Under the pieces are notes generated by a model that saw only the letters and a program-made list of their open reading frames with translations, searched no databases and was not told the origin of the DNA. A program made the position numbers and the translations under genes. From a virus, in the IMG/VR virus record IMGVR_UViG_3300044464_000097, positions 1 to 34,770 of that record: a stretch of DNA of 34,770 nucleotides; one strand, written 5' to 3'. This document shows positions 2,525 through 34,770 of the stretch, one piece after another (within the stretch, counting starts at the first letter, position 1; every line of letters starts with the position of its first letter).

Positions 2525-2525
2525 G

Positions 2526-5463: not shown

Positions 5464-5555
5464 CGTTGATCCTTCACGGGTGAACCACGCGCCACCGCTC
5501 GCCCCGGATGGGGTCCACGATGGCGCGCAGGTATGGTAACGGGACGGGCATGGAA
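5464..5555 (-). other. Intergenic gap, no gene seen
   Basis: These 92 bases separate the Ig-like protein gene from the glycan cassette. They contain the ribosome binding site of the methyltransferase at the left end. No clear -10/-35 pair or U-tract hairpin was seen, so the cassette is probably read through from the lysis genes. Confidence 0.4.
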
Positions 5556-5909
5556 CTAGTCGGGGACGGGCGTCCCGACGGAGACGTTCAGCTGCCCCCG
5601 AACCCCGGGCTCGTAGCTCAACGGCTGGAGCGTGGACTCGTACCCCGGCGCCGAGATCGTGACGTCCGCTGCCCCACGATCGAGCGGCGTCAGGAGCCAC
5701 GCCTCGTGAGTCCCCGGGATCGTGATCGGAAGCCCTTCGGCATCCAAGCCCTCATGCTCGGGCAAGACTTCGATCCCCACCTGATCGGGGGCCGAACTCA
5801 CCCAGCTCACCTGAACCGCCGGATCCGGCGTACCGTCGGGCTTCCGTGGGGCCGTCGATACCAAGACACGCTCGACATCGAGCATGACAATGGGTGGTCT
5901 CGTAATCAT
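5556..5909 (-). CDS. Internal in-frame start: 117-residue beta-rich product
   Basis: ATG 5909 is preceded by GGAAGGAG with 7 bases of spacing, as good as any start in the window. It begins exactly where the helical N-terminal part of the longer ORF ends (MITRPPIVMLDVERV). The product would be the isolated Ig-like domain. Either both forms are made, or the longer frame exists because a small upstream gene has lost its stop codon. The sequence alone cannot separate these possibilities. Confidence 0.5.
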   Translation of the reverse strand: MITRPPIVMLDVERVLVSTAPRKPDGTPDPAVQVSWVSSAPDQVGIEVLPEHEGLDAEGLPITIPGTHEAWLLTPLDRGAADVTISAPGYESTLQPLSYEPGVRGQLNVSVGTPVPD

Positions 5910-11370: not shown

Positions 11371-11790
11371 CTAGCTCCCCCCGACCGGCGGACACAGGAC
11401 CTCGCGCGATTCCTTCCACGTGATAGGCTTATCCCACTGCGCGAAGCGGCGCCCCCGGACCCAGCGCTCCGTCATCGTCGGCTGCTCCGGCCAGAAGACG
11501 GTAAAGGCCGTGGCCGGCTCCTCCAAGATGAACGGGTAGAGCGTGAACGTCTGCCGCAGGAGCCGGATCGATTCGAGCTTCTGTAGCGTCGATTGGTAGA
11601 AGACGTTGAAGAGGAAGTCGAATTCGTACCGCTCCTCGCCGACGTAGATCATGGAGAGATTGCCGGCCTGCGCCATCTGCTCGACCACGATCTGCTCCCG
11701 GCGTACTTCGAGCTCCACCACCTCATCGTCCGTGAGCATGAACCCGCCGCCTGCAAGGTCAGCGTGCGCTATCCGGATTACGTTACTCAT
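11371..11790 (-). CDS. Distal tail protein candidate
   Basis: The 139-residue protein is coupled to the tape measure by an ATGA overlap and abuts the next gene (TAG then ATG). It is a compact alpha/beta protein with ERYEFDFLFNVFYQSTLQK in the middle and a late aromatic stretch (FTVFWPEQPTMTERW). No family was recognised with certainty. A small protein between the tape measure and the tail tip genes is commonly a distal tail or tail tip assembly component. Confidence 0.6.
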   Translation of the reverse strand: MSNVIRIAHADLAGGGFMLTDDEVVELEVRREQIVVEQMAQAGNLSMIYVGEERYEFDFLFNVFYQSTLQKLESIRLLRQTFTLYPFILEEPATAFTVFWPEQPTMTERWVRGRRFAQWDKPITWKESREVLCPPVGGS

Positions 11791-17792: not shown

Positions 17793-18797
17793 CTAGACCG
17801 ACCCCACGATCACACCTTGACGGAATCGGGCGAGGATCGAATCGACGTCGGCGTAACCCGTCGCGTTATTGATCTGTGCCTTCCTAAAGATGTCCCGCAT
17901 GGTGTACTGCCGATCGCCGTCCGTGGACTCCGATGAAAAGGCGGCATCGGTGAGTCCGAGCGGGTCATCGCAGACGGCGGCATAGCGGATCAGTTGCCCG
18001 AGAGCCGCCGTGATCTGGCGCGGTGGAGAGGCGAAGGCGCCCCATTCGCCCGTGATCTGGATATTCTGGAAGCCTGGCGGCCAGATGCCGCACCCGCCGC
18101 CGGGCCAGCCCCATGGGTAGCCGATGAACCCCGACGCAAAGCGGTCGCTGTAGCGCTGCACGTTCCCGAGAGCGAGCATGGTGCGGCTGCCGGAAATCCG
18201 GATACCCGCTGGGTCGATCAGCGAGTCCTCGCCCCCCGGATGGCATGAGAGAACGCGCGCTTCGATCACACTCTGAATCGGGCGCTTGATCGAGAGCGTG
18301 CCCCGGCCCGAGCCGTCGAAGATCCGGGCTGCGGTTTGGGGTAGGAACGTCTGGCCCGTTACCCACTCGATCGTCTCTTGACCCAAGAGCACCATTTCGG
18401 CGAGCTGGGCCGGGGTGATCTCCGAGGCATCGGGGAGCCAGGTGCGGGCCGATTCGACCGTCATGTAGGGCGTTCCGGACGTGGCCGTGGAGAAGGCGAG
18501 CACCTGGAAGGCGAAGGTGAAGGGCTCTTCCGTCCCGCCGGAGGAGGCGGTCGCAAACCAGCGATCGAAGTGGATCGAGACAGGCTCGTTTGAGGGCACG
18601 AACCAATCGACGTAGTACTGGCCGAGCGCCGAGCGGACAATCGCCGTACCGGAGATCGTGGCGAGGACGGCCATGTTCTCGTCCAGGATCTCCACTTGCC
18701 GGATCTGGAAGGGATCCACGGGCGTGCCGGCGAGCGAGAAGGCAGCGCGGAGTCGCACGGTCTGGCCCGGCTGGGCGTGCCCACGATCAACGGCCAT
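17793..18797 (-). CDS. Head-tail connector (gp6/adaptor-like) with N-terminal beta domain
   Basis: The 334-residue protein starts at ATG 18797 with GAGGAG 8 bases upstream and overlaps the previous gene by 11 bases. Residues 1 to about 110 form a beta-sandwich-like domain (GQTVRLRAAFSLAGTPVDPFQI, ALGQYYVDWFVP). From about 115 a connector domain follows: TWLPDASEITPAQLAEMVLLGQETIEWVTGQTF, the FDGSGRGTLSIKRPI stretch common in adaptors, a Gly/Trp-rich loop, and a C-terminal helix pair (LGQLIRYAAVCDD, then DVDSILARFRQG). Helical adaptors of this kind bind beneath the portal. The extra N-terminal domain is unusual and might face outward. Confidence 0.7.
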   Translation of the reverse strand: MAVDRGHAQPGQTVRLRAAFSLAGTPVDPFQIRQVEILDENMAVLATISGTAIVRSALGQYYVDWFVPSNEPVSIHFDRWFATASSGGTEEPFTFAFQVLAFSTATSGTPYMTVESARTWLPDASEITPAQLAEMVLLGQETIEWVTGQTFLPQTAARIFDGSGRGTLSIKRPIQSVIEARVLSCHPGGEDSLIDPAGIRISGSRTMLALGNVQRYSDRFASGFIGYPWGWPGGGCGIWPPGFQNIQITGEWGAFASPPRQITAALGQLIRYAAVCDDPLGLTDAAFSSESTDGDRQYTMRDIFRKAQINNATGYADVDSILARFRQGVIVGSV

Positions 18798-19032
18798 GCT
18801 TCACACTCCTCTTCGCGCGCGGCTTGGATGGTGGCTTGACGGCTGTCCTGGCACCCGCAGGCGGGGCGAGCTTGGTCCCGGCCGGCAGCGGGGGCGGCTG
18901 ATGGCCAGGCATGGGTTCCGACCGAATGAGCGGAAACCGGCTATCGCTCGAGCCGACGCAGAGTGCCGCAGCGATGACCCCGAGACAAAAGCCGACGATC
19001 AGCCCGATGATGCCTGCCGCCCAGGGGGTCAT
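18787..19032 (-). CDS. Small single-pass membrane protein
   Basis: The 81-residue protein starts at ATG 19032, overlapping the fibre stop (ATGA). One transmembrane helix covers about residues 3-26 (AAGIIGLIVGFCLGVIAAALCVG), followed by a Pro/Lys/Arg-rich cytoplasmic-type tail ending in KRSVKHGR. Short DUF3789-like proteins with this plan occur among phage structural genes without known function. Its place between a giant fibre gene and a connector gene is odd for a membrane protein. Confidence 0.6.
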   Translation of the reverse strand: MTPWAAGIIGLIVGFCLGVIAAALCVGSSDSRFPLIRSEPMPGHQPPPLPAGTKLAPPAGARTAVKPPSKPRAKRSVKHGR

Positions 19033-22000
19033 AGCGGCACCGCCTCGAAGGTATCGACCGGCGATCCGCCACCACCAGGGCCAGGCGTGCAAGGGGGATC
19101 GCAGGCCTCGACGTGCGAACGCATCCGGCCGCCGTTCAAGGTGAGCGGGAGGCGGGTCTGAATGTCATTCGTATCGCCGAGAATGTCGTCGATCAGGTTC
19201 TCGGCGAAGCCAGCCGAGCCGGCGATCACGTGCCCTGCGAGCGCCTCGTCCCATACGGCGTCGGCAATCGTGGCTGCTGAAGGACTTGCCGCCGCGGAGT
19301 TGTTTAGCGCCTCGCCCGTGGAGCCGACGGCCAAGTGCCCTGCCAGAATCTCGTCCCAGGTCTGGTCTACGATCTCGTTGATGGCCGAGACATCCAGGCT
19401 CGCGGCCGTGATCCCGTTCAACGCCACGGAGCCTACCGAACCGGTCACGGAAGCCGTGGATCCCGTAACATTGCCCTGCACGGAGGCGACACCTTCGCCG
19501 AAACTCCCGGCGATGACGTGGCCGGCTCTCAATTCATCCCAAACCGCGTCAGCTATAACGGCGGCGGAGGCGCCCGAGCCGGCGTTGTTCAGAGCCTCAC
19601 CGGTGGAACCAACGCCGAGATGACCCGCAAGAATCTCGTCCCAGGTTTGATCGACGATCTCATTCACGGCGGAGACGTCGAGGGAGGCCGCGGTGATTCC
19701 GTTCAAGGCAACCGAGCCGATGGACCCCGTGACCGAAGCGACCGTACCCGTCACGCTCCCCTGGACGGATGCCACCCCCTCGCCGAACGAACCAGCTATG
19801 ACATGACCAGCGCGCAACTCGTCCCAAACAGCATCGGCAATGGTTGCGGCGGAGGCACCGGATCCAGCATTGAAGAGCGCTTCTCCCGTGGAACCCACGC
19901 CCAGGTGCCCAGCGAGTATTTCATCCCACGTCTGGTCCACGATCTCGTCAACCGCCGACGTGGCAAGTGCCGCGGCAGTGATCGCATTCGCCGCGAAGGA
20001 TGCGGCGGTAATGCCACCCGCGGCAACAGATCCAACCGACCCGACGACATTGCCCCCGACGTTCCCCGTCACGGAGGCGGTGGAGCCGGTGACGTTTCCT
20101 TGCACGGACGCGACGCCTTCCCCAAAGCTGCCGGCAATGACGTGGCCCGCCCTGAGTTCATCCCAGACCGCATCGGCAATGGTGGCCGCGGAGGGTGACG
20201 CCGCAGCAGCGAGCGAAAGCGCTTCACCAGTGGATCCGACTCCCATGTGGCCTGCGAGAATCTCATCCCACGTTTGATCCACGATCTCATCGACTGCGGA
20301 AGATGCCAGGGCGCCGCTCGTGATGGCGTTCGCGGCAAAGCTGGCCGCCGTGATGCCACCCGCGGCGATGGACCCAGTGGATCCGACGACGTTTCCGCCT
20401 ACATTCCCCGTCACTGAAGCCACCGATCCGGTCACGTTGCCCTGCACCGACGCGACACCCTCACCGAAGCTGCCAGCGATCACATGGCCGGCCCTCAATT
20501 CATCCCACACGGCGTCGGCGATCACGGCGGCCGTGGGCCCCGCAGCGGCGAGTGCATCCCGGATCGCTTGGAGTGAATCCGTCGTTCGGTCGTAGACCGC
20601 CGTGCCGTCGTCGAGGATCTGCCCGACCACCGAGCCGTCGAGCACATCGGTCGTGAGCGTCACGGCACGCTTGGTCAGTTGCGAGAGGATCAGTCCAGAC
20701 GTATCGGCCGTCCCGTGCGCGGCCACGATGTCCTCGTCCCACACGCCATCGGCGATCTCGGCAATGGCCGTGGCGTCGAGCGAGGACGCCGTGATTCCGT
20801 TGGCTGCGACCGAGCCCACGCTGCCGACCACGTTCCCATTCACATTGCCAACGACATTCCCGCCGACGTTTCCGACCACGCTGGCGACGGTCCCCACCAC
20901 GTTGCCATTCACGTTCCCGACAACGTTGCCGCCGACGTTCCCCGTCACCGAGCCGACGGAGCCTGTCACGTTGCCCTGAACGCTAGCGACACCCTCGCCG
21001 AAAGAGCCGGCAATGACGTGGCCAGCGCGCAACTCGTCCCACACAGCGTCAGCGATCGTTGCGGCGGACGCACCGCTGCCCGCATTGTTCAACGCCTCGC
21101 CGGTGCTGCCGACACTCAGGTGCCCGGCGATCGGCTCGTCCCACACGCCGTTCACGATGCTCGTGACGTTGACGACTGAATCCACGGTGCCGCACAGGTC
21201 GCCATTGATGTCGCAACCCGTACCGGCGCCCGTGGCTTCGATCCCGTCACCGTCCGTCAGCGCTTCGGCATGCAGCCCGTCGCCGATCACCGAGCCACCG
21301 GTGGCCATGATGCCGTGACCACCGGTGTCGGCTTCGGCCCAGAGTCCGTGGAACCCGTTGCCGTTGGCCAGCGCATGGATGCCATGCCCGTCGCGCCCAA
21401 GCGATTCGATTCCGTTGCCCATGTCCACGGCAACGAACTGCGCGCCATGGCCCCCGACGCCGCTGCCGCGCCCGTGGATTCCTTGGCCTGTGGCCCCGCC
21501 CGCGGCGGCTGCTCGGATGCCGTCGCCCGACGTGGCTCCGCCCGCAGCGCTGAGGCCGTGGCCGGTGGCGCCAGCTTCGAGCCGCATCCCGTGGCCAGCG
21601 CCATCGCCGAAGCCGTAGAACCCGTGGCCACTGACGCCCGACTGCCCAACGATCCCTGAGTTGCCGGCCGTTCCGCCACCGATGCCCTGGACGCCCTGCC
21701 CGTTGGCCTGCGCCTGTCCCCGAAAGCCGTCGCCGCTCGTGGCCCCACCGAACCCATGAATGCCATGGCCCGTGGCCCCACCAAGCCCGCGGATGCCGGC
21801 ACCAGTGCCCGCGCCCATGCCGATGATGCCGTGCCCGTTGGTGGCGCCTCCGGTGGCCGCGATGCCAGCCCCGTTGGACGCCCCACCCTGCGCAGCGAAT
21901 CCAGCCGCCGTACCGAAGCCAAGCGCCGAGAAGCCTGCCGCATTGCCTCCGCCCGCGTTGGCAACGATGCCAGTACCGCTCGTGACTCCGCCCTCGCCGA

Positions 22001-23381
22001 CGATGCCGCTCCCGGTTCCAACGCCTACGGCCTGCAAGCCGTGGCCCGTAGCGCCACCGCTGGCACGGATGCCGGCACCCGTGCCAGCACCTAGCGCGGC
22101 AAGCCCGCGGCCGTTGGTCGCGCCGCCGGTCGCCCGGATGCCGTCGCCGTTCGTGGCACCGCCCGTGGCGGTGATCCCATGTCCGGCACCCTGTCCATCA
22201 GCGACGATGCCAGAGGCGCCGCCCTGCGCCGTGGCCTGGATGCCTGGGCCGGTGGCGCCGCCTGTCGCTAGCACGCCCGCCGCCGAGCCCTGGCCGGCGC
22301 CGTCGATGCCGGGCGAGTTGCCGGCCGTGCCCGTGCCGCGGATGCCCGAGCCCGACGTGGCCCCGCCAACCCCATGAATGCCGTGCCCGGTGGCCCCCCC
22401 GGTCGCCTCGATCCCGTGGGCAGCACCCTGCCCGGTGGCCACGACGCCACTGAAGCCTCCGGTGCCTGTCGAGCGCACCCCCGCGCCCGAAGTCGCCCCG
22501 CCACTCGCCAGCAGGCCGTCGCCGGTTGGACCGCCACTCGTTTTGATTCCCGCGCCAGTGCCGCGGCCAGAAGTCTGGATACCCGCCGCGTTGGTCGCCC
22601 CACCGAGTGCGCGGATGCCAGGCCCAGCGCCATCACCGAGCGCGTCAATACCTACGCCGCCGCTGCCACCCGTCGCTCGGATGCCGGATGAACCCGCACT
22701 GAGCGTGTCGATACCCGGCCCGCTTCCGCCCACGGCCAAGATGCCCGACAGGCCATCCGCATAGACCCCCGATCCACCGCCGGCACTCACCCCGATCGCG
22801 TTGATGCCGTTGCCGGAGCCCTTGCCCGTCGTGGTGATGCCGTGCCCGTTGCCAGCGCCAGTGGCAAGGATCTCGACCACATCGGTGTTGCTGCTGTGCG
22901 CGCTGATCGCCGGCCCACCGCTGTTGTCGATGTCGATCGCACCGCCCGCCGCCGTCGAGTTGAGGCGCAATTGGTTCAGCGTAAGCGTTTGGCCGCCGGT
23001 GCCGTCGAGCATAGTCTCCAGGTTGTCGGCCGCCGTGGCATCACCGGACACTTGCACCATGTTGGAAGCCACGGCCGACAAGCCGAGGCTCACGCCGTCG
23101 TGCGGGTTCGCGTTCGTCGTGATGAAGTTGGCGCCAACTGGGATGGCGTTCGTGGCCGTGAAGATGTATCCCACGTGGTCGCCGTTCGTGTCGGCGGCAC
23201 TCGGGTCGAACCGATACTGCCCGAGCCCAAGCTCTGTCACCGTGCCAGTCGCCGCCGCCTGTGCAGCGCCGTCGATCCCGCGATTCACCGTCACCGTGGC
23301 GCCGGTCAACCCGGCCCCCGTGGTGGCGTTGATCAGCACGAAATAGACGCGCTGGCCGGCGACGTTCTGGCGGAGTGTCAT
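19029..23381 (-). CDS. Giant repetitive fibre, BppU-like N-terminus, candidate head fibre
   Basis: This 1450-residue protein starts at ATG 23381 (ATGA overlap). Residues 1 to about 105 resemble BppU-type N-terminal domains that anchor receptor-binding proteins (GQRVYFVLINATTGAGLTGATVTV). Residues about 175-720 are a Gly-rich array of 11-12-residue units of the form GI-x-A-x-GGAT-x-G. From about 740 to 1420, five near-identical blocks centre on WDELRAGHVIAGSFGEG and alternate with EIVDQTWDEILAGH segments and GNVVGNV-type strands. A short C-terminal domain follows. The repeats suggest a long trimeric beta-helical or polyglycine-like shaft. The gene lies between capsid and connector genes, not with the tail tip, so a head fibre is more likely than a tail fibre. 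Confidence 0.75.
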   Translation of the reverse strand: MTLRQNVAGQRVYFVLINATTGAGLTGATVTVNRGIDGAAQAAATGTVTELGLGQYRFDPSAADTNGDHVGYIFTATNAIPVGANFITTNANPHDGVSLGLSAVASNMVQVSGDATAADNLETMLDGTGGQTLTLNQLRLNSTAAGGAIDIDNSGGPAISAHSSNTDVVEILATGAGNGHGITTTGKGSGNGINAIGVSAGGGSGVYADGLSGILAVGGSGPGIDTLSAGSSGIRATGGSGGVGIDALGDGAGPGIRALGGATNAAGIQTSGRGTGAGIKTSGGPTGDGLLASGGATSGAGVRSTGTGGFSGVVATGQGAAHGIEATGGATGHGIHGVGGATSGSGIRGTGTAGNSPGIDGAGQGSAAGVLATGGATGPGIQATAQGGASGIVADGQGAGHGITATGGATNGDGIRATGGATNGRGLAALGAGTGAGIRASGGATGHGLQAVGVGTGSGIVGEGGVTSGTGIVANAGGGNAAGFSALGFGTAAGFAAQGGASNGAGIAATGGATNGHGIIGMGAGTGAGIRGLGGATGHGIHGFGGATSGDGFRGQAQANGQGVQGIGGGTAGNSGIVGQSGVSGHGFYGFGDGAGHGMRLEAGATGHGLSAAGGATSGDGIRAAAAGGATGQGIHGRGSGVGGHGAQFVAVDMGNGIESLGRDGHGIHALANGNGFHGLWAEADTGGHGIMATGGSVIGDGLHAEALTDGDGIEATGAGTGCDINGDLCGTVDSVVNVTSIVNGVWDEPIAGHLSVGSTGEALNNAGSGASAATIADAVWDELRAGHVIAGSFGEGVASVQGNVTGSVGSVTGNVGGNVVGNVNGNVVGTVASVVGNVGGNVVGNVNGNVVGSVGSVAANGITASSLDATAIAEIADGVWDEDIVAAHGTADTSGLILSQLTKRAVTLTTDVLDGSVVGQILDDGTAVYDRTTDSLQAIRDALAAAGPTAAVIADAVWDELRAGHVIAGSFGEGVASVQGNVTGSVASVTGNVGGNVVGSTGSIAAGGITAASFAANAITSGALASSAVDEIVDQTWDEILAGHMGVGSTGEALSLAAAASPSAATIADAVWDELRAGHVIAGSFGEGVASVQGNVTGSTASVTGNVGGNVVGSVGSVAAGGITAASFAANAITAAALATSAVDEIVDQTWDEILAGHLGVGSTGEALFNAGSGASAATIADAVWDELRAGHVIAGSFGEGVASVQGSVTGTVASVTGSIGSVALNGITAASLDVSAVNEIVDQTWDEILAGHLGVGSTGEALNNAGSGASAAVIADAVWDELRAGHVIAGSFGEGVASVQGNVTGSTASVTGSVGSVALNGITAASLDVSAINEIVDQTWDEILAGHLAVGSTGEALNNSAAASPSAATIADAVWDEALAGHVIAGSAGFAENLIDDILGDTNDIQTRLPLTLNGGRMRSHVEACDPPCTPGPGGGGSPVDTFEAVPL
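19492..21050 (-). repeat. Five protein-level repeats of WDELRAGHVIAGSFGEG in the fibre gene
   Basis: Copies of the same coding block lie at 20992-21050, 20458-20516, 20116-20174, 19777-19835 and 19492-19550. A divergent sixth copy (WDEALAGHVIAGSAGF) lies near 19190-19260. The encoded residues are almost identical, but the DNA differs at many third positions. The spacing between copies varies (534, 342, 339 and 285 bases), because the segments between them differ in length. Confidence 0.85.
21225..22860 (-). repeat. Gly-rich short tandem repeats in the fibre gene
   Basis: Roughly 45-50 imperfect units of 11-12 codons encode G-[IVLF]-x-x-x-G-x-[AG]-[TG]-x-x. Examples are GIRATGGATNGR, GLAALGAGTGA and GIRASGGATGH. 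On the plus strand this appears as recurring gccggtggc- and gatgcc-like words. Units vary at the DNA level and are not perfect copies. Confidence 0.8.
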
Positions 23382-23737
23382 TGGACGTCGTACCCCGTTC
23401 CCATGTTCGCCTTGGCGCCCCATGCGGCCACGAAGGACGGCGCCGCGGGCGCTTCGAGGTCAAACAGCTGCGGCTCCCACCACGCCATCGGGGCGACCAC
23501 GGCGTGCATGCTCCCCGACGGCGTCGAGTATCCCGACCCGGAGCTAGACGGCAGGCTCGAAGGAAATAGCGCGCGCTTTTCGTCGGGCAGACCCACAAGA
23601 TCCATCCCGTCGTAGCCCGGCAGCAAGGCGCCAAACGTCGTACCGATTACCCGCGCGTTCACCGTCGGCAGAGGCGAGTCGAAGACCTCGCCGACGTGCT
23701 GGATACAGATGACGATGGTGCCGCGATAGGTGGGCAT
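23378..23737 (-). CDS. Hypothetical structural protein
   Basis: The protein is 119 residues from ATG 23737. It starts with a short beta strand pair (TYRGTIVICIQHVGEVFDSPLPTVN), has a Gly/Leu-rich middle and ends in a Met/Trp-rich stretch (MAWWEPQLFDLE). There is no signal peptide or membrane segment. It overlaps the fibre start by ATGA and lies 4 bases after the previous stop, so it is co-expressed with the fibre and might be its partner or chaperone. I do not recognise the family. Confidence 0.6.
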   Translation of the reverse strand: MPTYRGTIVICIQHVGEVFDSPLPTVNARVIGTTFGALLPGYDGMDLVGLPDEKRALFPSSLPSSSGSGYSTPSGSMHAVVAPMAWWEPQLFDLEAPAAPSFVAAWGAKANMGTGYDVQ

Positions 23738-24471: not shown

Positions 24472-25623
24472 TTATGCCGCCTGGTAATTGAAGTGCACCG
24501 GCTGGGCTGCCGGCTGCTGGTGGACAAACGGAGCACGGTAGTCGTAAGGCGGCGCATTCTGCGCCATCCACTCGATCTCTTGCCAGACCCGCGCGGGCTT
24601 GACCTCCAAGGCACAGAGCGTTTGCCCGGGCGGCGCGCCACACGTGGGCGCGTGGTAGCAGGGAGCGCAGTGGACGGCGGCATATAGGCTCCGCACATGG
24701 CGGTAGTGCACGGCCCTGGCCTCGGGCGGCACGCTCGTGAAGTATCCCACCGTCCTGACGCCCAAGGCTTCGGCGAGATGGAGGACTCCGGTATCGGGCG
24801 TCACCAAGTAGTCAAGCGACGCGACGACCGATAACAACGTCGGGATCATGAGATGCCCGGCGAGCGAGCGCACTCCCGCCGCTGCGAGCCTTGGTGTCAG
24901 CTGGTGCACGTGGTCATCGATCAGCACGGCCCGGTAGCCATGATCGAAGGCCCGCTCGGCGAACTCCTCGACGTAGGTCGTCGGCCAGTTCCGCATGCCA
25001 GACTGCGAGTGCGAGCCGACCACAATCCCGACCACCGGCCGGCCGTGATCGATCGCCCCCGTGGCGATCTTCCCTTGTAGACGCTCCTGATCTGTGGCCT
25101 GGAGGGGATAGGACCAGTCCAAGGGCTCGCCGCCGTTCAAGAGGTAGCGGGCGAATACTCCGATCCGATCGTAGCGCTCCCGGCCGTCTCGCTCGGAGTA
25201 GCCCCGAAGATCGATCACCCACGGGAGCCGGCCATGGAGATCGGCCAGGGCGCAGACCCGGTGGAGGAATCCGCCCGGCTGTCCTAAGAGGCAATTCCGG
25301 AGGAGCGGCACGAATTCGTGCGCTGTCGCGTAGGTGAACCGGAGCCGGGGGAACCGATGCGCCAACTCCCGCAAGGCGGGGAGCACCATCAGCACGTCAC
25401 CGAGCCCACCCGTTCTGACGATCGGGATCTCGGAGTCCGCCGGGGCCCGCGTGAGCCGTGCCGGGTGGACCACCTGGATCTCGTGGTTCGGGTCGATGAA
25501 GCCCTGGGAGAGTAGAAACAGGTAGTCGCCTTCGGGCACGTCCTGGGGCTCGCCACGCCGGAACGCGCGTCCGTTGTGGGCATAGGTGAGGCTTCGCGCC
25601 AGGACCACCTGAGGCACGGGCAT
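24472..25623 (-). CDS. GT9-family glycosyltransferase with capsid-neighbour-like N-terminal module
   Basis: The 383-residue protein is a heptosyltransferase-like GT-B enzyme. The acceptor-side motif GGLGDVLMVLPALREL (72-87), a central RPVVGIVVGSHS, the donor-side TPDTGVLHLAEALGVRTVGYF, and a Cys-rich end (CAPCYHAPTCGAPPGQTLCALEVKPARVW) are typical of GT9. Residues 1 to about 55 are not part of GT9. They follow the pattern LTYxxxGxxFxxGE-x-x-xVP-x-x-x-xxFLxxxGFI, seen in small phage proteins encoded next to capsid genes. The ATG at 25623 touches its ribosome binding site, so GTG 25617 may be the real start. It is the first gene after the capsid gene, behind a structured spacer. Confidence 0.85.
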   Translation of the reverse strand: MPVPQVVLARSLTYAHNGRAFRRGEPQDVPEGDYLFLLSQGFIDPNHEIQVVHPARLTRAPADSEIPIVRTGGLGDVLMVLPALRELAHRFPRLRFTYATAHEFVPLLRNCLLGQPGGFLHRVCALADLHGRLPWVIDLRGYSERDGRERYDRIGVFARYLLNGGEPLDWSYPLQATDQERLQGKIATGAIDHGRPVVGIVVGSHSQSGMRNWPTTYVEEFAERAFDHGYRAVLIDDHVHQLTPRLAAAGVRSLAGHLMIPTLLSVVASLDYLVTPDTGVLHLAEALGVRTVGYFTSVPPEARAVHYRHVRSLYAAVHCAPCYHAPTCGAPPGQTLCALEVKPARVWQEIEWMAQNAPPYDYRAPFVHQQPAAQPVHFNYQAA

Positions 25624-25819
25624 CCTTTCTCGGCTGTCTCGCCCCTATGGGTAGGCTGGGGCGGGGGAGGCGGACGGCTACTCAAGAGCCGGGTGAGTTG
25701 TCTTGGCTTCTGTCCCCTTCGGCGAAGCGCGTTTCCAGCCGGTCCCGGAGAACCCGTGGGCAACCGGCCAGAGCTACCGCGCTTCGCCGAAGGTCGCAGG
25801 CTACGAGAGCGTTACCCCG
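25624..25819. other. Structured intergenic spacer between capsid and glycosyltransferase genes
   Basis: These 196 bases form the longest gene-free gap in the window. They hold the long inverted repeat at 25716-25793 and a smaller hairpin (GCCCC at 25641-25645 with GGGGC at 25658-25662) just before the glycosyltransferase start. No convincing promoter or U tract was found. Confidence 0.6.
25716..25793. repeat. Perfect 16-bp inverted repeat with nested stem
   Basis: CCTTCGGCGAAGCGCG (25716-25731) is exactly complementary to CGCGCTTCGCCGAAGG (25778-25793). The 46 bases between contain a second stem, GCCGGT (25738-25743) with ACCGGC (25763-25768), and a CCC/GGG pair. The RNA would fold into a long two-tier hairpin just after the capsid stop. 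No U tract follows, so it is more likely a processing, attenuation or mRNA-stabilising element than a simple terminator. Confidence 0.85.
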
Positions 25820-27403: not shown

Positions 27404-28876
27404 TTATCGCCGGGCGATGCGGGGGAGCCCGCCGCCGTTACGCGCCGCGTTCCGCTCCGAGGTCGTGACGGGCGCCCCGAGAATGGTCGAGTACTCGACC
27501 GGCGTACCGCTCGAGGCGGTGGCGACCGCCTTCGACTGGAGGAGACGGTTCGGAGGCGGGGTCGCAGCACTCACACGCTTCGGCTCAGCCGAGGGTGCCG
27601 CGACACCGGCACCCACCAGATCCGGCAGCTCGTTGTCGCCGGGCTCGTCCATCGCCGGGCCGCCGCCCGTGAGCGCTGCCACGAGCTCCTGCACGGTCGC
27701 CTCGAGCCGGGCGATCCGGTCATCCGGGGTAGGAGCCGCCGGGATCGGGGCCCCGGCCGCGGCACCATCCTTGGCACCATCGGCCGGGGCAGTCGGCGCC
27801 GACTTGGCAGGCTCCATGATCGGATTCCCGGAGCCCTGAGGCGGAGCCGCGGGGGCGGGCTCAGCCGCGGCTGCCGGGGCAGCGGAGGCGGTGGCCGGCA
27901 GGGTAAAGCCGGCGAGGCCCGCCAGCGCGTGGATCATCTGGCCTTGCTGCTCGATCACGAGCCGCAGGTCCTCCCGTGACTTCACTTGCTCAGACATGAG
28001 TCCCTCCACGCGGGACTCCACGCCCCGCAGATACTCGACCAGCTTGCGCCCGGGGCGCGGCTCACGGATTCCCAAGAAGCGCTTGAAGAGCGTGCGCCAG
28101 CGGTTCTCACCCTGGAATTTGACGGCCGGCGGACCCGTGGGCTCTACCTTGAGCGACTTCCCCAGCCCCAAGCTCATCGCCGCCGCATTGATCAGGCCCT
28201 CGGGTTCAGTCCCGTCGGGCACAAGGATCTTCGTCTCATCGTTCGGGTCGCCGAACTCGCCCCGCACCATCTGGCAGGCCGAGACCGCGGCGTCTTCGGG
28301 GAGCCCCATCTCGGTCGCTTGCGTCAAGCAATCGGCGAGGCTCCATTCGGTAGGGGTCGAGGGCACCTCGATTGCCGCCGGCTCGTCCTCGAGCGGCATG
28401 TCGGCTGCCATCTCTTCGGGCACCGGCGGTGCGACGTCCTTGCCTTCGGGCACGATCCCGTCGGGGCACTTCCGTCCGCGTGTGATCATCTTTTCCTCCT
28501 GCATTGTGAGTTCGCCCCGTGTGATCGCGTCCTCAACATCGGCCAGCATCTTCAAATCGGCGACCGAGGCGTCATGTCCCGCCATGTCGGCCCGGAGGAC
28601 ATCCGTAAAATTGCCGAGCGCATCGGGTTGACCCGCTGCCTCGCAGAGGGTCGGGGTCGGCATGTCGCCGCGAGCGAGGCATTCGGTGTAGTTGACCCCG
28701 GGCGCGAGGGTCGGGGAGATCCCCGCCTTGGAGCCGGGCCCAGCCTTGAAGAAGCGCCAGCGGCGTCCCGTGGCAGGCCGATCAACGCCTGCCACTTCCG
28801 TTACCTCGCCCGCGATGATCTCGCCCACGTAGTCGAGTTCCTTGGCACCCGAGAGAAGCTCCCTGAGTGACTTCAT
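27404..28876 (-). CDS. Scaffold-like protein with N-terminal VDRPA module
   Basis: The start is ATG 28876, overlapping the protease stop (ATGA), giving 490 residues. The first 40 residues contain GEVTEVAGVDRPATGRRWRFFK, the short VDRPA signature that follows XkdF-type domains in many phages. The middle has a helical part rich in acidic residues, then a coiled-coil-like stretch (SRVEGLMSEQVKSREDLRLVIEQQGQMIHAL, about 305-335). After that comes an Ala/Pro-rich disordered region, and finally a helix (DDRIARLEATVQELVAAL) with a low-complexity tail. Long helices, disorder and position between protease and capsid genes fit an internal scaffold. The Cys residues in the middle are unexplained. Confidence 0.6.
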   Translation of the reverse strand: MKSLRELLSGAKELDYVGEIIAGEVTEVAGVDRPATGRRWRFFKAGPGSKAGISPTLAPGVNYTECLARGDMPTPTLCEAAGQPDALGNFTDVLRADMAGHDASVADLKMLADVEDAITRGELTMQEEKMITRGRKCPDGIVPEGKDVAPPVPEEMAADMPLEDEPAAIEVPSTPTEWSLADCLTQATEMGLPEDAAVSACQMVRGEFGDPNDETKILVPDGTEPEGLINAAAMSLGLGKSLKVEPTGPPAVKFQGENRWRTLFKRFLGIREPRPGRKLVEYLRGVESRVEGLMSEQVKSREDLRLVIEQQGQMIHALAGLAGFTLPATASAAPAAAAEPAPAAPPQGSGNPIMEPAKSAPTAPADGAKDGAAAGAPIPAAPTPDDRIARLEATVQELVAALTGGGPAMDEPGDNELPDLVGAGVAAPSAEPKRVSAATPPPNRLLQSKAVATASSGTPVEYSTILGAPVTTSERNAARNGGGLPRIARR

Positions 28877-30483
28877 CCGATCCCCATCTCGGCTGCCGAC
28901 GGAACCAGGTGGAGCGGCACAACGCCCCACTGGCCCTCGATCGAGTAGCCCGTGAGCCTGCCCGACTTGACTTGCTCCCAGGCTTCGGGGTGCCACTTGA
29001 CCCCCATGACCCAGGCGCCGCGGGGGAAGTCGGGATCACCCGAGCGGGCGATGAAGGATTCGACGGGTTCCCCGGCCGGGCGGCCGTCTGTCATCTTGAG
29101 CCCCGTGATGTGCATCAGGTTCATGCCGCCCTTCCGGGCGATGAACTCGTGCGCCATCTTCCGGACCTCGTCCTCGGTTGCGTACTGGCCCTGGAGATCC
29201 ACCTCCCAGGGCGCGTACACGACGTCGTAGGTGATCCGCTCCTGCGCCTTCTCGGGCGAGGTCACGAACTTGCAGCCCGTGACGTCCAACCGTGCGGCCG
29301 GCTCGGCCAAGGCCTTGACGACCGACTGGCGGATAAGGGCACCGGGGGAGACGTCCGACTGAGCAACCGTGCGGATGATGTCCATATTCCACTGGACCCA
29401 GCCTGCGGCCCCGGAGCCGCCCGGGGTCGAGTCCACCATCCGCTTCGGCACCCGGACATCGATGATCTGCTTGTGGTTATTAGGGCGGCCGATCCCGACG
29501 CGAACGACAGCGCCGCCGGAGTCCGGGATCACCCGGCTATCGATCCGGTCGTAGAGGTTCTCGGCACCGCGGGACCGCGAGACCGGCACGATCCAGAACC
29601 CGCCTTCGGAAAAGACGGGGCCGCCCCACGGGATGCCTTTCGCGTGTGTCGGGGCAGAAACGAAACGGCCGTGGCCCGAGACCGGGGGCCGCATCCCGGC
29701 TGCTTGCGGCAACGTAGCGGCCTTCGCTGGCCCGCTGGGAGCCGACGCAAAGCCGTACGCCTGGGCCACGGCTCGCCATGCGACCCCCGAGGCGTAGCGC
29801 TTGCTCGCGGGATCGTCGGCCTTGCCGAACATCTGAAAGGTCGTGTCGTGCATCCGGTCGTAGACCTCGCGCCCGTAGGCGGGGAGGTTCGCCGGATCTT
29901 GAGTCGCGTAGGCACCGGCGGCCGCCGCCTTCTCTCGGTCGGGATCCGTATCGGTGGGCTCCACTCGGTCCTCCTTCGTTCCTGGGGCGGACTTACCGGC
30001 GGCTGCTTCCTCGGCCAGCCGCTCGTTCACCCGCCCAAGCTCGCCGGCCAAGGTCTGTAGCCCGCGCGCATCGGCCGTCCGCGCTCGGCTGGAGATGGCA
30101 CTCAAGGTCCGGGTCGCCGGGTGCTCACGGCCAAGGGTCGAGCGCGCCCGGGCGGTCGCCCGATCCACGAGCCCTGCCAAGCGCTGCCGGCCGGCGGCCG
30201 CTTCCTGCGGGTTTTTGGTACCGGCGACCGCGAGCGCCACCCCGCGCGCGTCGAGCGCATCGTTCGCCGCCCCGCCGGCGCCTTCGGACGAGAACCGGCC
30301 GTGATCGTCGCGCACGTATTCGCGCTTGCCGTCCTGCGGGTAATCGGGAGCGCCGGGGGCAGCGGCAGCGTCGGGGGCGGGATCGGTGGCCGGCTCGCCA
30401 ATCGGGGGCCCGGTCGGGACGATCTGGCCACCGGGTAGCGTGACCTCGTGAAAGTGCGGGTCCTCGGCTTTCGTCCCTTGCAC
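28873..30483 (-). CDS. XkdF-like capsid maturation protease with ChaB domain
   Basis: The 536-residue protein starts at GTG 30483 (GGGGGACGA upstream). About residues 199-244 match a ChaB domain (LPAYGREVYDRMHDTTFQMFG, then VAWRAVAQAYG). The final 120 residues match the XkdF putative serine protease: YDVVYAPWEVDLQGQYATEDEVRKMAHEFI (419-448), MHITG with a conserved His near 458, VESFIAR (474-480), GAWVMGVKWHPEAWEQVKSG and GYSIEGQW (512-519). The N-terminal 180 residues are Ala/Arg-rich with an RDDHGRFSSEG motif. XkdF is predicted to cleave capsid and scaffold proteins in PBSX-type phages. A protease at the start of this block fits. Confidence 0.75.
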   Translation of the reverse strand: MQGTKAEDPHFHEVTLPGGQIVPTGPPIGEPATDPAPDAAAAPGAPDYPQDGKREYVRDDHGRFSSEGAGGAANDALDARGVALAVAGTKNPQEAAAGRQRLAGLVDRATARARSTLGREHPATRTLSAISSRARTADARGLQTLAGELGRVNERLAEEAAAGKSAPGTKEDRVEPTDTDPDREKAAAAGAYATQDPANLPAYGREVYDRMHDTTFQMFGKADDPASKRYASGVAWRAVAQAYGFASAPSGPAKAATLPQAAGMRPPVSGHGRFVSAPTHAKGIPWGGPVFSEGGFWIVPVSRSRGAENLYDRIDSRVIPDSGGAVVRVGIGRPNNHKQIIDVRVPKRMVDSTPGGSGAAGWVQWNMDIIRTVAQSDVSPGALIRQSVVKALAEPAARLDVTGCKFVTSPEKAQERITYDVVYAPWEVDLQGQYATEDEVRKMAHEFIARKGGMNLMHITGLKMTDGRPAGEPVESFIARSGDPDFPRGAWVMGVKWHPEAWEQVKSGRLTGYSIEGQWGVVPLHLVPSAAEMGIG

Positions 30484-30636: not shown

Positions 30637-31368
30637 ATGATCAAACACCCGCGCGAAGCTCCTCGCCCCGACCTGTGTAGCTTCGAGGACTGCGAGCAAG
30701 CTGCCGTTGTGTACTCGCCCGCCGTTGAGGCTTGGGTATGTTCCGCGCACTCAACCGCCGGCTCGTGGAGCGGGCCCGGCGGCCTGGACGACCCAACGCC
30801 AGCAGAGGACAAACCGCGATACAGCGCACGCGAGATCCAAGCCGCACGACTGGAGGGGGCGCGCGCGATCTGGCGATGGTGCTATGAAGAAGTCCAATAT
30901 GAACACAACCACATCGCTGGCCCGGACACCAGCTACGGATATGGCGTCCGCGGTGTGACTGCTGCCCTACTAGGTAAATTCGGCCTGCTGAGCACCGACG
31001 AGGCAATGGCCAAGATCATCGGAGAAAGTGTGGGAGGTGATGCGATTGCCGGACGACTCGACAGCGAAGCCGCCGCCGTACATGTAAGTGTGGGCGATGA
31101 GGTGTCCGGAATAGACGAAGCTGGCGAATCTATCGGCCAAAGCAGTGGACCCGCAACGCCAAGCGCGGATGCTACACCACCGGCGCAAGCGGCCGAGCCT
31201 CCTCGCCCTTACTTCATCGAAGCGAGCGGGAGCACTTTTGTCCCTGGTGCAATGGCCTCCGTGTGCGTGTTGTGCGGGGAAACCATGATGGTCGGAACTG
31301 GCTGGGCCCGTTACAAGTCGAAAGCCTACGCGCATTCGGCGTGCGCCTTCGCAAATATCGCGGACTAG
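30637..31368 (+). CDS. Plus-strand zinc-finger-like protein, leaderless, possible regulator
   Basis: The ATG at 30637 directly follows the extended -10 promoter; the frame extends further upstream but that part lies before the promoter. The 243-residue product has an N-terminal metal-site-like pattern CSFEDCEQ with CSAH (C-x4-C-x15-C-x2-H, about residues 13-36) and a C-terminal one, CVLCG, with HSACAFA (C-x2-C, then H-x2-C). Between them are a helical domain (ARLEGARAIWRWCYEEVQYEH) and a Pro/Ala/Asp-rich linker. The only plus-strand gene inside the structural run is this one. A DNA- or protein-binding regulator is plausible; a moron is the alternative. Its TAG overlaps the TAG of the next minus-strand gene as CTAG. 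Confidence 0.7.
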   Translation: MIKHPREAPRPDLCSFEDCEQAAVVYSPAVEAWVCSAHSTAGSWSGPGGLDDPTPAEDKPRYSAREIQAARLEGARAIWRWCYEEVQYEHNHIAGPDTSYGYGVRGVTAALLGKFGLLSTDEAMAKIIGESVGGDAIAGRLDSEAAAVHVSVGDEVSGIDEAGESIGQSSGPATPSADATPPAQAAEPPRPYFIEASGSTFVPGAMASVCVLCGETMMVGTGWARYKSKAYAHSACAFANIAD

Positions 31369-31682
31369 CGTTTGCCATTCGTATCGGGCTTGCCGGGCGG
31401 TCCGATCGGGTGCTGGATCAGGACGCGCTTCTCTTTGCACCGTCGGCACTGGAGGAAGACGACCCCCTGGGCGCCAGCATGCTGCTCGGGCGTGTCATCG
31501 GGGGCGAGGAGCGCGTAGCGCGTCCCCATCGGTAGCTCGGCAATGAGGGCGCCGTCCTTGAAGCATCGCACCTGGACGAGCCGAGCGGCGGGATCCGACT
31601 GGGTCGGGGGCTCGTAGCCTTCGGCCTTGAGGCGAGCCCGCTGCCGCTCCAGGCGATCGCGGCTCCGTCCGCCAATCCGCAC
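31365..31682 (-). CDS. Small Cys-containing hypothetical protein
   Basis: The 105-residue protein starts at GTG 31682, abutting the TGA of the previous gene. It has an Arg-rich N-terminus (RSRDRLERQRARLKAEGYEPP), a beta segment (VQVRCFKDGALIAELPMG) and a late CRRCKEKR motif. One CxxC plus an earlier Cys could form a minimal metal site. It ends tail-to-tail with the plus-strand gene at a shared CTAG. Transcripts running past it would be antisense to that gene. Confidence 0.55.
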   Translation of the reverse strand: MRIGGRSRDRLERQRARLKAEGYEPPTQSDPAARLVQVRCFKDGALIAELPMGTRYALLAPDDTPEQHAGAQGVVFLQCRRCKEKRVLIQHPIGPPGKPDTNGKR

Positions 31683-31934
31683 TCACTCACCACCCTCATT
31701 AGCCCTGCTCTCGCTCTCCGCTTTGGCGATGTAGGCGCGGGCAGCTTCGTGCCACCGGTTCTGTCGTTCGATCCCACGCGCTGACAACGGGTCGGCCTCA
31801 ATCAGTCCTCGCATAATTGCCGACGCCTGCTTGCGCTCCATCTTCTCGCCGCGTTCCATTCCATCCGTAATCTCGAACTCGACGCTACCGCACTTGGAGC
31901 ACCGTATCCGCTCGGTCGCTGCAATCTCGCTCAT
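31683..31934 (-). CDS. Small hypothetical protein with one CxxC
   Basis: This 83-residue protein starts at ATG 31934 (ATGA overlap with the upstream stop). It begins with IRCSKCGSVEFEI, a half zinc-ribbon knuckle. The rest is a long charged helix (ERKQASAIMRGLIEADPLSARG, then RWHEAARAYIAKAE). The missing second knuckle means it could bind zinc only as a dimer or with a partner. I do not recognise the family. Confidence 0.55.
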   Translation of the reverse strand: MSEIAATERIRCSKCGSVEFEITDGMERGEKMERKQASAIMRGLIEADPLSARGIERQNRWHEAARAYIAKAESESRANEGGE

Positions 31935-32158
31935 GGCTGCTTCTCCTTCGCTGCATCATCGCGCACCACCTTCGGCGGCCGGCCGGGACCACCAGGCCGC
32001 CAGACCTTGCTACCCGTCCGCTTCCGCGTGCGCGCCGTGTCCTTCTTGGCACACGCATCACAGGTCCGCAGGTAGTGCTCGCGTGGCTTGCCGCACCGGA
32101 CACAGCGACCCGTGGCGAGCATACGATCGGCCCAGATGCGGCCCTTCTGAGGCGTCAC
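31931..32158 (-). CDS. Small zinc-finger-like, basic protein
   Basis: The 75-residue protein uses a GTG start overlapping the minor head protein stop (GTGA). It carries CVRCGKPREHYLRTCDAC, a C-x2-C-x10-C-x2-C knuckle pair, followed by a very basic tail (ARTRKRTGSK, then GGPGRPPKVV). The GRPPK stretch resembles an AT-hook. A nucleic-acid-binding role is likely; whether it acts in packaging or regulation cannot be told. Confidence 0.6.
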   Translation of the reverse strand: MTPQKGRIWADRMLATGRCVRCGKPREHYLRTCDACAKKDTARTRKRTGSKVWRPGGPGRPPKVVRDDAAKEKQP

Positions 32159-33252
32159 TCATCCTCCGGAAAGGCGAAGTCGAGATCGTCGGTCGCGGAG
32201 GGATCGGGCCCCGTCTGCCGCGGTGGGCGATCAGGATCGGCGAGCCGCTCCCGCGCAAACTGGTCGGGATTGTTCGTCCCGTCCCAGACGTCGGCATCGG
32301 AGAAGGCTTGATCTGCCGTCACGACCGGCACTTCATCGCACCGACAATTGCAAACCTGCGCCGCACTCCCGGCGGGATCGAGTGGATGCATGAGCTGCTC
32401 GCCGCCGACGTCATAGGGCTCATCGATCGCGCGGATCTGGCCGTGCGCGTCGAAATGATCTTCCCTTTCCTTGCCGTCAAGCGTCGCAAGCCAGCGCTTG
32501 AAAGGCACTCCGCTCGCGGAGTACGTGATCCAGCTCGCCTCGCTCACGATCGCACCCGTCTCCGTGCGTGCCAGCAATTCCGATCTGGCTTTCGTCAACC
32601 AATCGAACTCGCCCCGTAACGTGCGTGCGACTTCAAACGGCCCCTTGCCCGCGAAATAGAACTCCTCGGCAAGCACCGTCTTCAACCGCTCGAAGACATC
32701 ATCGGCCACGTTCCCGGCGAGGAGGTTCGCTCGCTGTGCCAGGGCTTCGGCCACGGCCGGGCTCTCCAGGCGAAAAGCCCCCCGTACGCCCAGCGCCCGA
32801 CGCGCGGCTGTGCCCCCCGCCTCGAACATATCGACGTAGGCGTCATCCAGCGATTCCGTGATCGCGAGCCGAAAGGCGTCTTCATCGTCAGCCATGAGGG
32901 AGCCCACGGCCCGGAGCTCATCCAGCTCGAAGATCCCTTGCAGTTGGCGGGTGCGCTCGGGGCCCAGGGGCCGGCCGCCCCGACCTACTGGGCCCTTTGC
33001 GCGTTTCGCCTCGGCCGCCAGACGTCGAGTCGCGTCACGGTGGAGCCGTTCCAGAGTCCCAGAGCGAGAGAGAACCTGGGTCACAGCTGCCGCCGTCCGC
33101 GAGAAGTCCCGATTCAACGCCTGACGCAGGGCACGTGCCGGCCGGACAAGGGATGTCGGCCGACGCAGCCGGGGCGAATCCAAAGAGGGCGGCTCGGGTA
33201 AGCGGCGCGCCGCGGAGCGAGTGGACACGACTATCGCCGATCCCCGAGCCAC
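32155..33252 (-). CDS. Minor head protein, Mu F/SPP1 gp7-like
   Basis: The 365-residue protein starts at GTG 33252, with GGAAGGATCG upstream. The N-terminal half is helical. The C-terminal part has the Mu F head-morphogenesis pattern: TKARSELLARTETGAIVSEAS, SGVPFKRWLATLDGKEREDHFDAHGQI and GGEQLMHPLDPAGSAAQVCNCRCD. The conserved H-x-x-x-x-GQ, MHPxDP and C-x-C-R-C elements are all present. Such proteins sit next to the portal and are taken into the prohead in small numbers. The tail after the domain is short and acidic. Confidence 0.88.
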   Translation of the reverse strand: MARGSAIVVSTRSAARRLPEPPSLDSPRLRRPTSLVRPARALRQALNRDFSRTAAAVTQVLSRSGTLERLHRDATRRLAAEAKRAKGPVGRGGRPLGPERTRQLQGIFELDELRAVGSLMADDEDAFRLAITESLDDAYVDMFEAGGTAARRALGVRGAFRLESPAVAEALAQRANLLAGNVADDVFERLKTVLAEEFYFAGKGPFEVARTLRGEFDWLTKARSELLARTETGAIVSEASWITYSASGVPFKRWLATLDGKEREDHFDAHGQIRAIDEPYDVGGEQLMHPLDPAGSAAQVCNCRCDEVPVVTADQAFSDADVWDGTNNPDQFARERLADPDRPPRQTGPDPSATDDLDFAFPEDE

Positions 33253-33254
33253 AG

Positions 33255-33785
33255 TTACGATCCTTCCAACGCCGAACGCTGGACGTCATCCGAGAAGGTG
33301 GCGACTGGTTCACCCGCATCGTTGAAAGTGATCTTGACCAGGCCGCGGCGCTCCCAGTCCTGCCGCACGCGCCTGAAAGCCTCGACCCGGACGGGGCCCG
33401 GGCGCACGGTCCATGTCAGGCGCTTTTCCCCGGTGCCATCTACCCACTCGAAAGGAATGCGCTCCTCCCATCCGCTCGAAGTCCGCGGATCAGGGAGGCG
33501 TCCGGTCGCCGGGTCGGGATGGCAATCCATGATCAGGTTCGCCTTGGCGTGCGAGCCGTAGCCGCGGGGCGGCTCAAGCTGGAGCATCCAGCCGCATCCC
33601 CGATTATCACCAACAAATGGCGGCTCATCGGCCATGCAGAGCGCCATCACGTATTCCCTGCGGGTCGTGAAACTGAACTTGCAACGCGGGCATACAGCCG
33701 CCATGAGCTTCGGATCTGGCCGGCCGGGTACTGCACCAGGATCCGATGGCCGTCGCCGAAAGCGGGGATCAGGTTTGAGGTCCAC
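33255..33785 (-). CDS. Zinc-ribbon-like hypothetical protein beside the portal gene
   Basis: The 176-residue protein starts at GTG 33785, overlapping the portal gene end by 17 bases; a downstream start is possible. It has CPRCKFSF, a later Cys (MALC) and a GCGW motif, together a possible four-Cys zinc site over residues about 34-66. The rest is beta-rich (WVDGTGEKRLTWTVRPGPVRVEAFRRV). The gene lies between the portal and Mu F-type genes. I do not recognise it. Confidence 0.6.
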   Translation of the reverse strand: MDLKPDPRFRRRPSDPGAVPGRPDPKLMAAVCPRCKFSFTTRREYVMALCMADEPPFVGDNRGCGWMLQLEPPRGYGSHAKANLIMDCHPDPATGRLPDPRTSSGWEERIPFEWVDGTGEKRLTWTVRPGPVRVEAFRRVRQDWERRGLVKITFNDAGEPVATFSDDVQRSALEGS

Positions 33786-34770
33786 CGTTCCCCGCTGGCA
33801 GCTGCGGGCGCGGGACTACGCGATCGCTGACCCGCGTCGTCCCCTGCCGTAGCCGTGTCAACGCGTCCTCCGGTGACTGGCGACTATCGCCCCCACCGAG
33901 CCCGAACATGCCGGCAATCCGGGATAGCGTCCCCGAGCGCTGGCCGGGGAGCGCCATAGCACTGCCGGCATCCCCGCCATCACGCGCAAGGAGCCCCGCC
34001 GTTTGGAGATCCAAGAGCCGTATCGGGATCGTCGCTTCCTCCGAGTCATCGGGCGGGAAGTCGAGATGCTTGACGATCATCGACGCCCACGCGCGAATGT
34101 CATTGATCGAGAGCGCACCCGTGGACGCGACCCCTACGAGCATCGATACTTCCCGCTGCTCGTCGAGAATGTCGATCTCGTCGTACTTGAAATCCACGGC
34201 CATGAACCCGAGCTCGTCGAGCATCAGGTCGAAGAAGGCTTCGAGCACCGCTTGCTCGGGGTCTATTTGAGACCGCTTGTAGGTCTCGTCCTGCGATTCC
34301 CCGGAGCCCGTACCGAGACTCGCCGTCTCGTTGATCCCGAGCTTCGAGGGCTGCATTCCGTACACATGGATGATGTTGTCCCGGTTCGCGATCTGGTAGC
34401 CCGACCACTCCTGATCGCTGGGCTCCCCGCCGAGCTTCTCGAAGACCACATCGTAGCCATCGATCGGGACCCGGAGCGTGAGGGTTCTATGATCCTCGCC
34501 CTCGATCATGTATTTCATGTGCTCTTCGATCGTGTTCTGGATCCGGTCGATGATGTTCTCGCGGGTATCGGGATCCGAGAACGCAGCCGAAGACGCCTTG
34601 ATCATCACGAGCCAATCGGGCATCCCGCGGTTCACGAAGAAGCGCACGTTCCGGTTGCTCGCAAAGATGTTTCCGACGAGCGAATTGAAGGCCGAGACAA
34701 TCGGCGGGATTCCATAATAGCGCTCGCGCGGGTGGTAAATCTTGAAGTCCGTCAGCTCGCGCTTCAAGTC
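33769..34770 (-). CDS. Portal protein (PBSX/HK97-like), 5' end cut by window edge
   Basis: The frame is open to the right edge; the TTG near 34767 is internal, so the start lies outside the window. The visible 333 residues begin in the middle of the portal fold: KIYHPRERYYGIPPIVSAFNSLVGNIFASNRNVRFFVNRG, a hallmark of PBSX-type portals. Then come a clip/stem region (GYQIANRDNIIHVYGMQPSKLGI), the EAFFDLMLDELGF helix and a Gly/Ser-rich C-terminus. The portal forms the dodecameric DNA channel at one capsid vertex. Terminase genes are probably just beyond the edge. Confidence 0.88.
   Translation of the reverse strand, partial: DLKRELTDFKIYHPRERYYGIPPIVSAFNSLVGNIFASNRNVRFFVNRGMPDWLVMIKASSAAFSDPDTRENIIDRIQNTIEEHMKYMIEGEDHRTLTLRVPIDGYDVVFEKLGGEPSDQEWSGYQIANRDNIIHVYGMQPSKLGINETASLGTGSGESQDETYKRSQIDPEQAVLEAFFDLMLDELGFMAVDFKYDEIDILDEQREVSMLVGVASTGALSINDIRAWASMIVKHLDFPPDDSEEATIPIRLLDLQTAGLLARDGGDAGSAMALPGQRSGTLSRIAGMFGLGGGDSRQSPEDALTRLRQGTTRVSDRVVPRPQLPAGNGGPQT

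Follow-up and report, generated by a model that had tools for sequence, protein, structure and literature searches.

The first gene downstream of the major capsid protein (MCP) gene of an uncultured phage encodes a small YqbF/FI-like capsid-neighbour module joined to a GT9 glycosyltransferase. The gene comes from a virus record in IMG/VR (34,770 bases), which was analyzed over its whole length and is called the window below. Because the front end is a capsid-neighbour protein, the fusion suggests an enzyme held on the growing shell to glycosylate it. No paper on a module-GT9 fusion was found in the literature searched, in agreement with the novelty that the first-pass annotation had ascribed to it; the fusion appears new, while FI-like proteins and the glycosylation of phage virions are each known already.

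Structural operon and position of the fusion gene

The window holds a tailed-phage structural operon on the minus strand (Table 1). On that strand, positions 24472-25623 form a single uninterrupted ORF with its ATG at 25623 and the purine-rich GAGAAAGG immediately upstream, and the plus-strand translation of the same interval is broken by stops. The stop of the MCP gene and the start of the fusion gene, both on the minus strand, are 196 nt apart, and the claim that the enzyme gene comes first after the capsid gene was borne out. The MCP matched phrog_1623, "virion structural protein", at 3.9e-42, and 104 phage records matched it, many of them annotated as major capsid protein.

Table 1. Features of the window, listed in the direction of the operon
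Feature	Positions	Strand	Basis
Portal	33769-34767	-	
Mu-F-like protein	32155-33252	-	
Series of small overlapping ORFs, weakly matching zinc ribbons, between the Mu-F-like and protease genes	31365-32158	-	
XkdF-type protease	28873-30483	-	
Probable scaffold	27404-28996	-	Inference
MCP, HK97-type, phrog_1623, 368 aa	25820-26926	-	PHROGs
MCP C-terminal tail, five conserved cysteines and Ser/Thr	25823 to about 25912	-	
Perfect 16-bp inverted repeat, MCP-GT9 spacer	25716-25793	-	
Fusion gene, YqbF/FI-like capsid-neighbour module and GT9 glycosyltransferase, 383 aa	24472-25623	-	ORF, Pfam GT9
N-terminal module, residues 1-47 (strands 5-8, 13-16, 19-23; helix 31-39), YqbF/lambda gpFI-CTD-like	25483-25623	-	
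GT9 catalytic domain, about residues 65-365	24529-25431	-	Alignment to WaaC/WaaF, invariance, Cys positions
Repeat protein, 1464 aa, GATGxG-like, later long repeats, no family	19029-23423	-	
Head-tail adaptor	17793-18797	-	
Tape measure-like protein	11787-13850	-	
Laminin-G-containing protein, 977 aa	7891-10824	-	
Second sugar cassette, downstream of the tail genes	1868-5700	-	
Methyltransferase (second cassette)	4867-5700	-	
GT2-GT9 fusion, 519 aa (second cassette)	3311-4870	-	
GT2-like (second cassette)	2526-3452	-	
RMNT_CmcI-type, rhamnosyl-O-methyltransferase-like (second cassette)	1868-2569	-	

Phage glycosyltransferases are encoded at two places within the structural region, in the fusion gene and in a second sugar cassette. 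The main parts of this cassette were kept in three of the four relatives searched; in the fourth, whose 44.7-kb record is possibly a fragment, they were not detected. The link between the cassette and the fusion gene is putative. The 1464-aa repeat protein is possibly a fibre or head appendage.

The GT9 catalytic half

The heptosyltransferase-like assignment of the first-pass annotation was upheld, with the gene placed on the minus strand. Residues 170-325 matched the Pfam GT9 family PF01075 (E 2.1e-13, 50.6 bits against a cut-off of 22), and the PDB profile matches of the fusion protein were WaaF and WaaC. The predicted GT-B fold had its best structural matches in 1psw, 3tov, and 2h1h (E 1e-11 to 1e-10) and also matched TibC, and the TIGR04414 (BAHT) model was absent among the matches at E 0.1. 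In the model the GT9 fold starts at the strand of residues 65-69, so that residues 1 to about 55 fall outside it, as the first-pass annotation had supposed. In the species genomes only two weak GT9 relatives were present (23-24% identity), and no full-length relative of the fusion protein was found in the phage records. GT9 enzymes act mostly on LPS.

The GT9 motif residues of the fusion protein are Asp76 in the GGLGD loop, R211, and D277-T-G-x-x-H282. In the alignment, Asp13 and Asp261 of WaaC corresponded to D76 and D277, and the catalytic/donor-site lysine of WaaC ("K-H-W-P" stretch) corresponded to Arg211. The GGxGD and DxG..H positions were unchanged across nine proteins with identity as low as 27%, and four invariant cysteines (C319/C322/C328/C337) make up a four-Cys finger in the C-lobe of the GT9 domain. 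Judged by its sequence, the GT9 active site has its positions intact and the protein is presumably catalytic.

The N-terminal module

Residues 1-66 matched no Pfam or PHROGs family. For the YqbF family PF14553, the module itself was without a Pfam match and its best stand-alone homologue reached 16.7 of 27 bits, under the cut-off; tblastn of the module against the phage records gave chance-level matches only. A profile of eight fusion-protein N-termini (A3) was searched against the 147 proteins of 12 phages whose capsids are homologous, and ranks 1 and 2 were taken by the post-MCP genes of the Rhizobium phages RHph_I4 and L338C (E 7.8e-8 and 6.8e-7). The post-MCP genes outscored the rest with this profile (Mann-Whitney p = 1.2e-6; p = 9e-5 once the two Rhizobium cues were removed and the comparison was limited to proteins of at most 230 aa), p-values that are optimistic because the phages are partly related.

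A further profile (A4) was made from eight stand-alone post-MCP proteins of cultured phages with homologous capsids and contained no sequence from the window. In the six-frame translation of the window it had one match only, at 25531-25608 (E 0.0023), which is the N-terminus of the fusion gene, and it had one match in each of two relatives' records of about 61 kb; it detected no second module copy in the window or these two relatives. Aligned with hhalign, A3 and A4 matched at E 3.6e-6 and a probability of 87.5. The stand-alone neighbours in A4 matched YqbF (2HJQ) at E 1.1e-6, and 2HJQ was also the best non-repeat match of the module profile in the PDB, weak at E 0.2. A PDB match of the module to 6nyr was rejected, its score adding up 12 weak repeats. 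Judged by eye, the post-MCP gene carries the module in 10 of the 12 cultured phages with homologous MCPs, and the fusion gene occupies the slot where these phages have a stand-alone protein.

The AF2 model of residues 1-65 consists of three strands and a helix (pLDDT 83-90 over residues 1-40, about 90 over 11-40). Searched with Foldseek against 350,542 chains, it retrieved B. subtilis YqbF (2HJQ) at rank 1, with a probability of 1.00 and 1.0 A over 40 columns at 35% identity. In VIA the module aligned with 2HJQ at Z 5.6 (1.9 A, 45 aligned) and with the C-terminal domain of lambda gpFI (2LSM) at Z 4.2 (1.8 A, 43 aligned), the latter tied with other matches; other small folds (L9-N and GINS) reached Z 3-4.5. 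The top viral structural matches of the module included an 88-aa protein and DUF7210 proteins, among them one of 74 aa from Thermus phage P74-26. In that phage a 74-aa protein is encoded directly downstream of the major head protein, and by length and name it is probably the DUF7210 match.

The module is homologous to YqbF-like capsid-adjacent proteins. The resemblance of the N-terminus to small capsid-adjacent proteins, proposed at first reading, was found concordantly by A3, A4, hhalign, AlphaFold, and Foldseek. The distant GT9 proteins checked in other viral and bacterial contigs were without the module by profile, in line with an N-terminus that is not an ordinary part of GT9 enzymes.

Comparison with known capsid neighbours and glycosyltransferases

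The first domain of YqbF (PF14553; PDB 2HJQ) has a fold like that of the window module, and the gene yqbF follows the MCP gene yqbE in the skin element of B. subtilis; YqbF has no glycosyltransferase, in contrast to the fusion in the window. Lambda gpFI is a packaging chaperone that helps terminase-DNA complexes meet procapsids, and it acts during packaging and is not known to be a virion component. Its gene, like the fusion gene, lies directly after the MCP gene, and its C-terminal domain (2LSM) may have a similar small fold, a likeness at the level of fold only. No sequence signal to the window module was found. The module is C-terminal in gpFI and N-terminal in the window fusion, and the enzyme is absent from gpFI. 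Lambda gpFI is a likely relative of the YqbF-like family of the module. Popovic and colleagues reportedly found in 2012 that the C-terminal domain of gpFI binds the capsid protein gpE, and are said to have tied the product encoded after the major head protein of TP901-1 to gpFI. This TP901-1 protein, MCP3, called a gpFI equivalent, is non-essential, its loss being tolerated with lower plaquing, and HHpred links it also to HK97 gp5 (PMC4493119).

The capsid neighbours of Rhizobium, Agrobacterium, Rhodobacter, Aeromonas, and Streptomyces phages share with the window both the slot and a homologous module, and so does the DUF7210-like protein that P74-26 encodes downstream of its major head protein. 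In the 12 cultured phages examined the module stands alone or has an HeH/LEM or other extension, never a glycosyltransferase. In RHph_Y1_11 it carries a long C-terminal part, and in the Streptomyces phages Faust (L057, 4030-4419) and Coruscant (L042, 4927-5394) an HeH/LEM-like domain is fused ahead of the post-MCP module.

A precedent for a GT9-fold enzyme acting on protein is TibC, which heptosylates its protein substrate and whose iron finger (cysteines 339, 342, 358, and 370) serves dimerisation and substrate recognition (PMC4358343). TibC/BAHT and the window enzyme have in common the GT9-like catalytic fold and a four-Cys finger in the C-lobe, but the cysteine spacing differs, and the N-terminal beta-barrel of about 97 residues in TibC/BAHT has no counterpart in the window protein, whose module is made of three strands and a helix. 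In mycobacteriophages, virions are glycosylated via phage-encoded glycosyltransferases (Freeman 2023, as cited in PMC12619734), and that source places the glycans on capsid and tail tube subunits. Those systems and the present one both have phage-encoded glycosyltransferases, and virion glycans are predicted for the present uncultured phage. We know of no capsid-docking fusion in the mycobacteriophage glycosylation systems.

Conservation of the fusion

The fusion was present, and adjoined the MCP gene, in all 18 viral contigs that had a homologous MCP (relatives of about 58% identity or more) together with DNA downstream, with GT9 identity down to about 50%. The dN/dS ratio was 0.08-0.34 for the module and 0.13-0.46 for the GT9 part, and both halves are under similar purifying selection. 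An MCP tail with 5-6 cysteines occurred in 7/7 examined MCPs of the fusion lineage and in 0/7 other homologous MCPs, a correlation that, in a single lineage, does no more than point towards an acceptor site.

In a distant phage (L074, 3137-5882; MCP 24% identity) the MCP gene is followed by a weak module-like gene (E 0.05) and then by a separate GT9 (29% identity), with a same-frame TGA between the two. This arrangement is a possible counterpart of the unfused state. A module at the N-terminus of the L074 GT9 itself was suggested by MAFFT and by eye, but the profile finds none, so it is not claimed.

Possible function of the fusion

We favour, with about even confidence, a GT9 enzyme that is tethered by a capsid chaperone, works on the procapsid, and most likely glycosylates a head protein. 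In this lineage a small YqbF/FI-like post-capsid protein would have been fused at its C-terminal end to the glycosyltransferase. The module, by homology with lambda gpFI, would attach to the MCP of the (pro)capsid, bringing the catalytic domain to the shell, where the enzyme would transfer a sugar to a head protein, with a nucleotide sugar of the host (probably ADP-heptose or a similar compound) as donor. The acceptor would most likely be the MCP, possibly its Cys/Ser/Thr-rich C-terminal tail, and the cassette of GT2-GT9, GT2, and O-methyltransferase could extend and methylate the glycan. Carriage of the enzyme in the virion, raised at first reading beside capsid docking, is not required by this model, nor does present knowledge of gpFI support it.

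The tethered enzyme is supported by the homology of the module to capsid neighbours and YqbF, the post-MCP slot, the 18/18 fusions, purifying selection, the kept D76 and D277, and the sole module copy found, as well as by the TibC precedent, the L074 gene order, and the Cys-rich tail confined to the fusion-lineage MCPs examined. Counted against it are the E of 0.2 between module and YqbF, the best stand-alone homologue under the Pfam cut-off, the fold-level likeness to gpFI, the non-essential MCP3 of TP901-1, Arg211 in place of the WaaC lysine, the mostly LPS-directed action of GT9s, and an MCP-tail correlation from one lineage. The fullest version, in which the FI/YqbF domain would dock a glycosyltransferase on every procapsid and each subunit would be glycosylated on the new Cys-rich MCP tail, with the cassette extending and O-methylating the glycan, is possible but doubtful.

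Another virion protein may be the acceptor, with the fusion acting during head assembly on the 1464-aa repeat protein, on small post-GT9 proteins, or, jointly with the second cassette, on a tail protein. The repeat protein shares its operon direction with the glycan cassette, and capsid and tail tube subunits are both glycosylated in mycobacteriophages (PMC12619734); with a capsid-neighbour module as the tether and the gene beside the MCP gene in 18/18 contigs, we consider this rather unlikely. Joining for co-expression only, where the module would stay a packaging chaperone and the GT9 would modify host LPS or a surface glycan (superinfection exclusion or receptor change), is in our estimate unlikely. 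It would agree with GT9 matches that are LPS heptosyltransferases and with the unrelated extensions that the module bears elsewhere (HeH/LEM in Faust and Coruscant, the C-terminal part in RHph_Y1_11), but the position in the late head operon argues against it, a chaperone would keep the enzyme at the procapsid, and GT9 enzymes with protein acceptors exist (PMC4358343).

The arginine at the donor-site lysine position of WaaC could also point to a catalytically dead GT9 that the head has co-opted as a structural or decoration domain, glycosyltransferase domains being presumably reusable as binding domains; with GGxGD and DxG..H invariant in nine proteins and purifying selection on the gene, this is improbable. 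Convergence, that is, a generic beta-beta-beta-alpha add-on with a chance likeness to capsid neighbours, has in its favour the shortness of the domain and the Z scores of 3-4.5 for small folds such as L9-N and GINS, but it is very improbable in view of the single A4 match in the window, the post-MCP position, the hhalign result, and the rank statistics. DNA glycosylation was considered and held unlikely because the gene adjoins the MCP gene within the head module.

To our knowledge, it is not clear how known phage glycosylation systems choose their virion substrates. The tethered enzyme, if true, would show how a phage enzyme selects virion proteins as substrates, and the module would be a natural tag to attach enzymes to procapsids. 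The fusion also offers a function-by-fusion clue for the small proteins encoded downstream of capsid genes, a family that is large and for the most part unannotated.

Spacer between the capsid and enzyme genes

No RNA families were found in the window. The inverted repeat in the spacer had an RNA fold z of -2.27, and is a possible mRNA hairpin between the capsid and enzyme genes that perhaps lowers enzyme expression. The same spacer in relatives holds inverted repeats of different sequence, to be read with caution as it is GC-rich.
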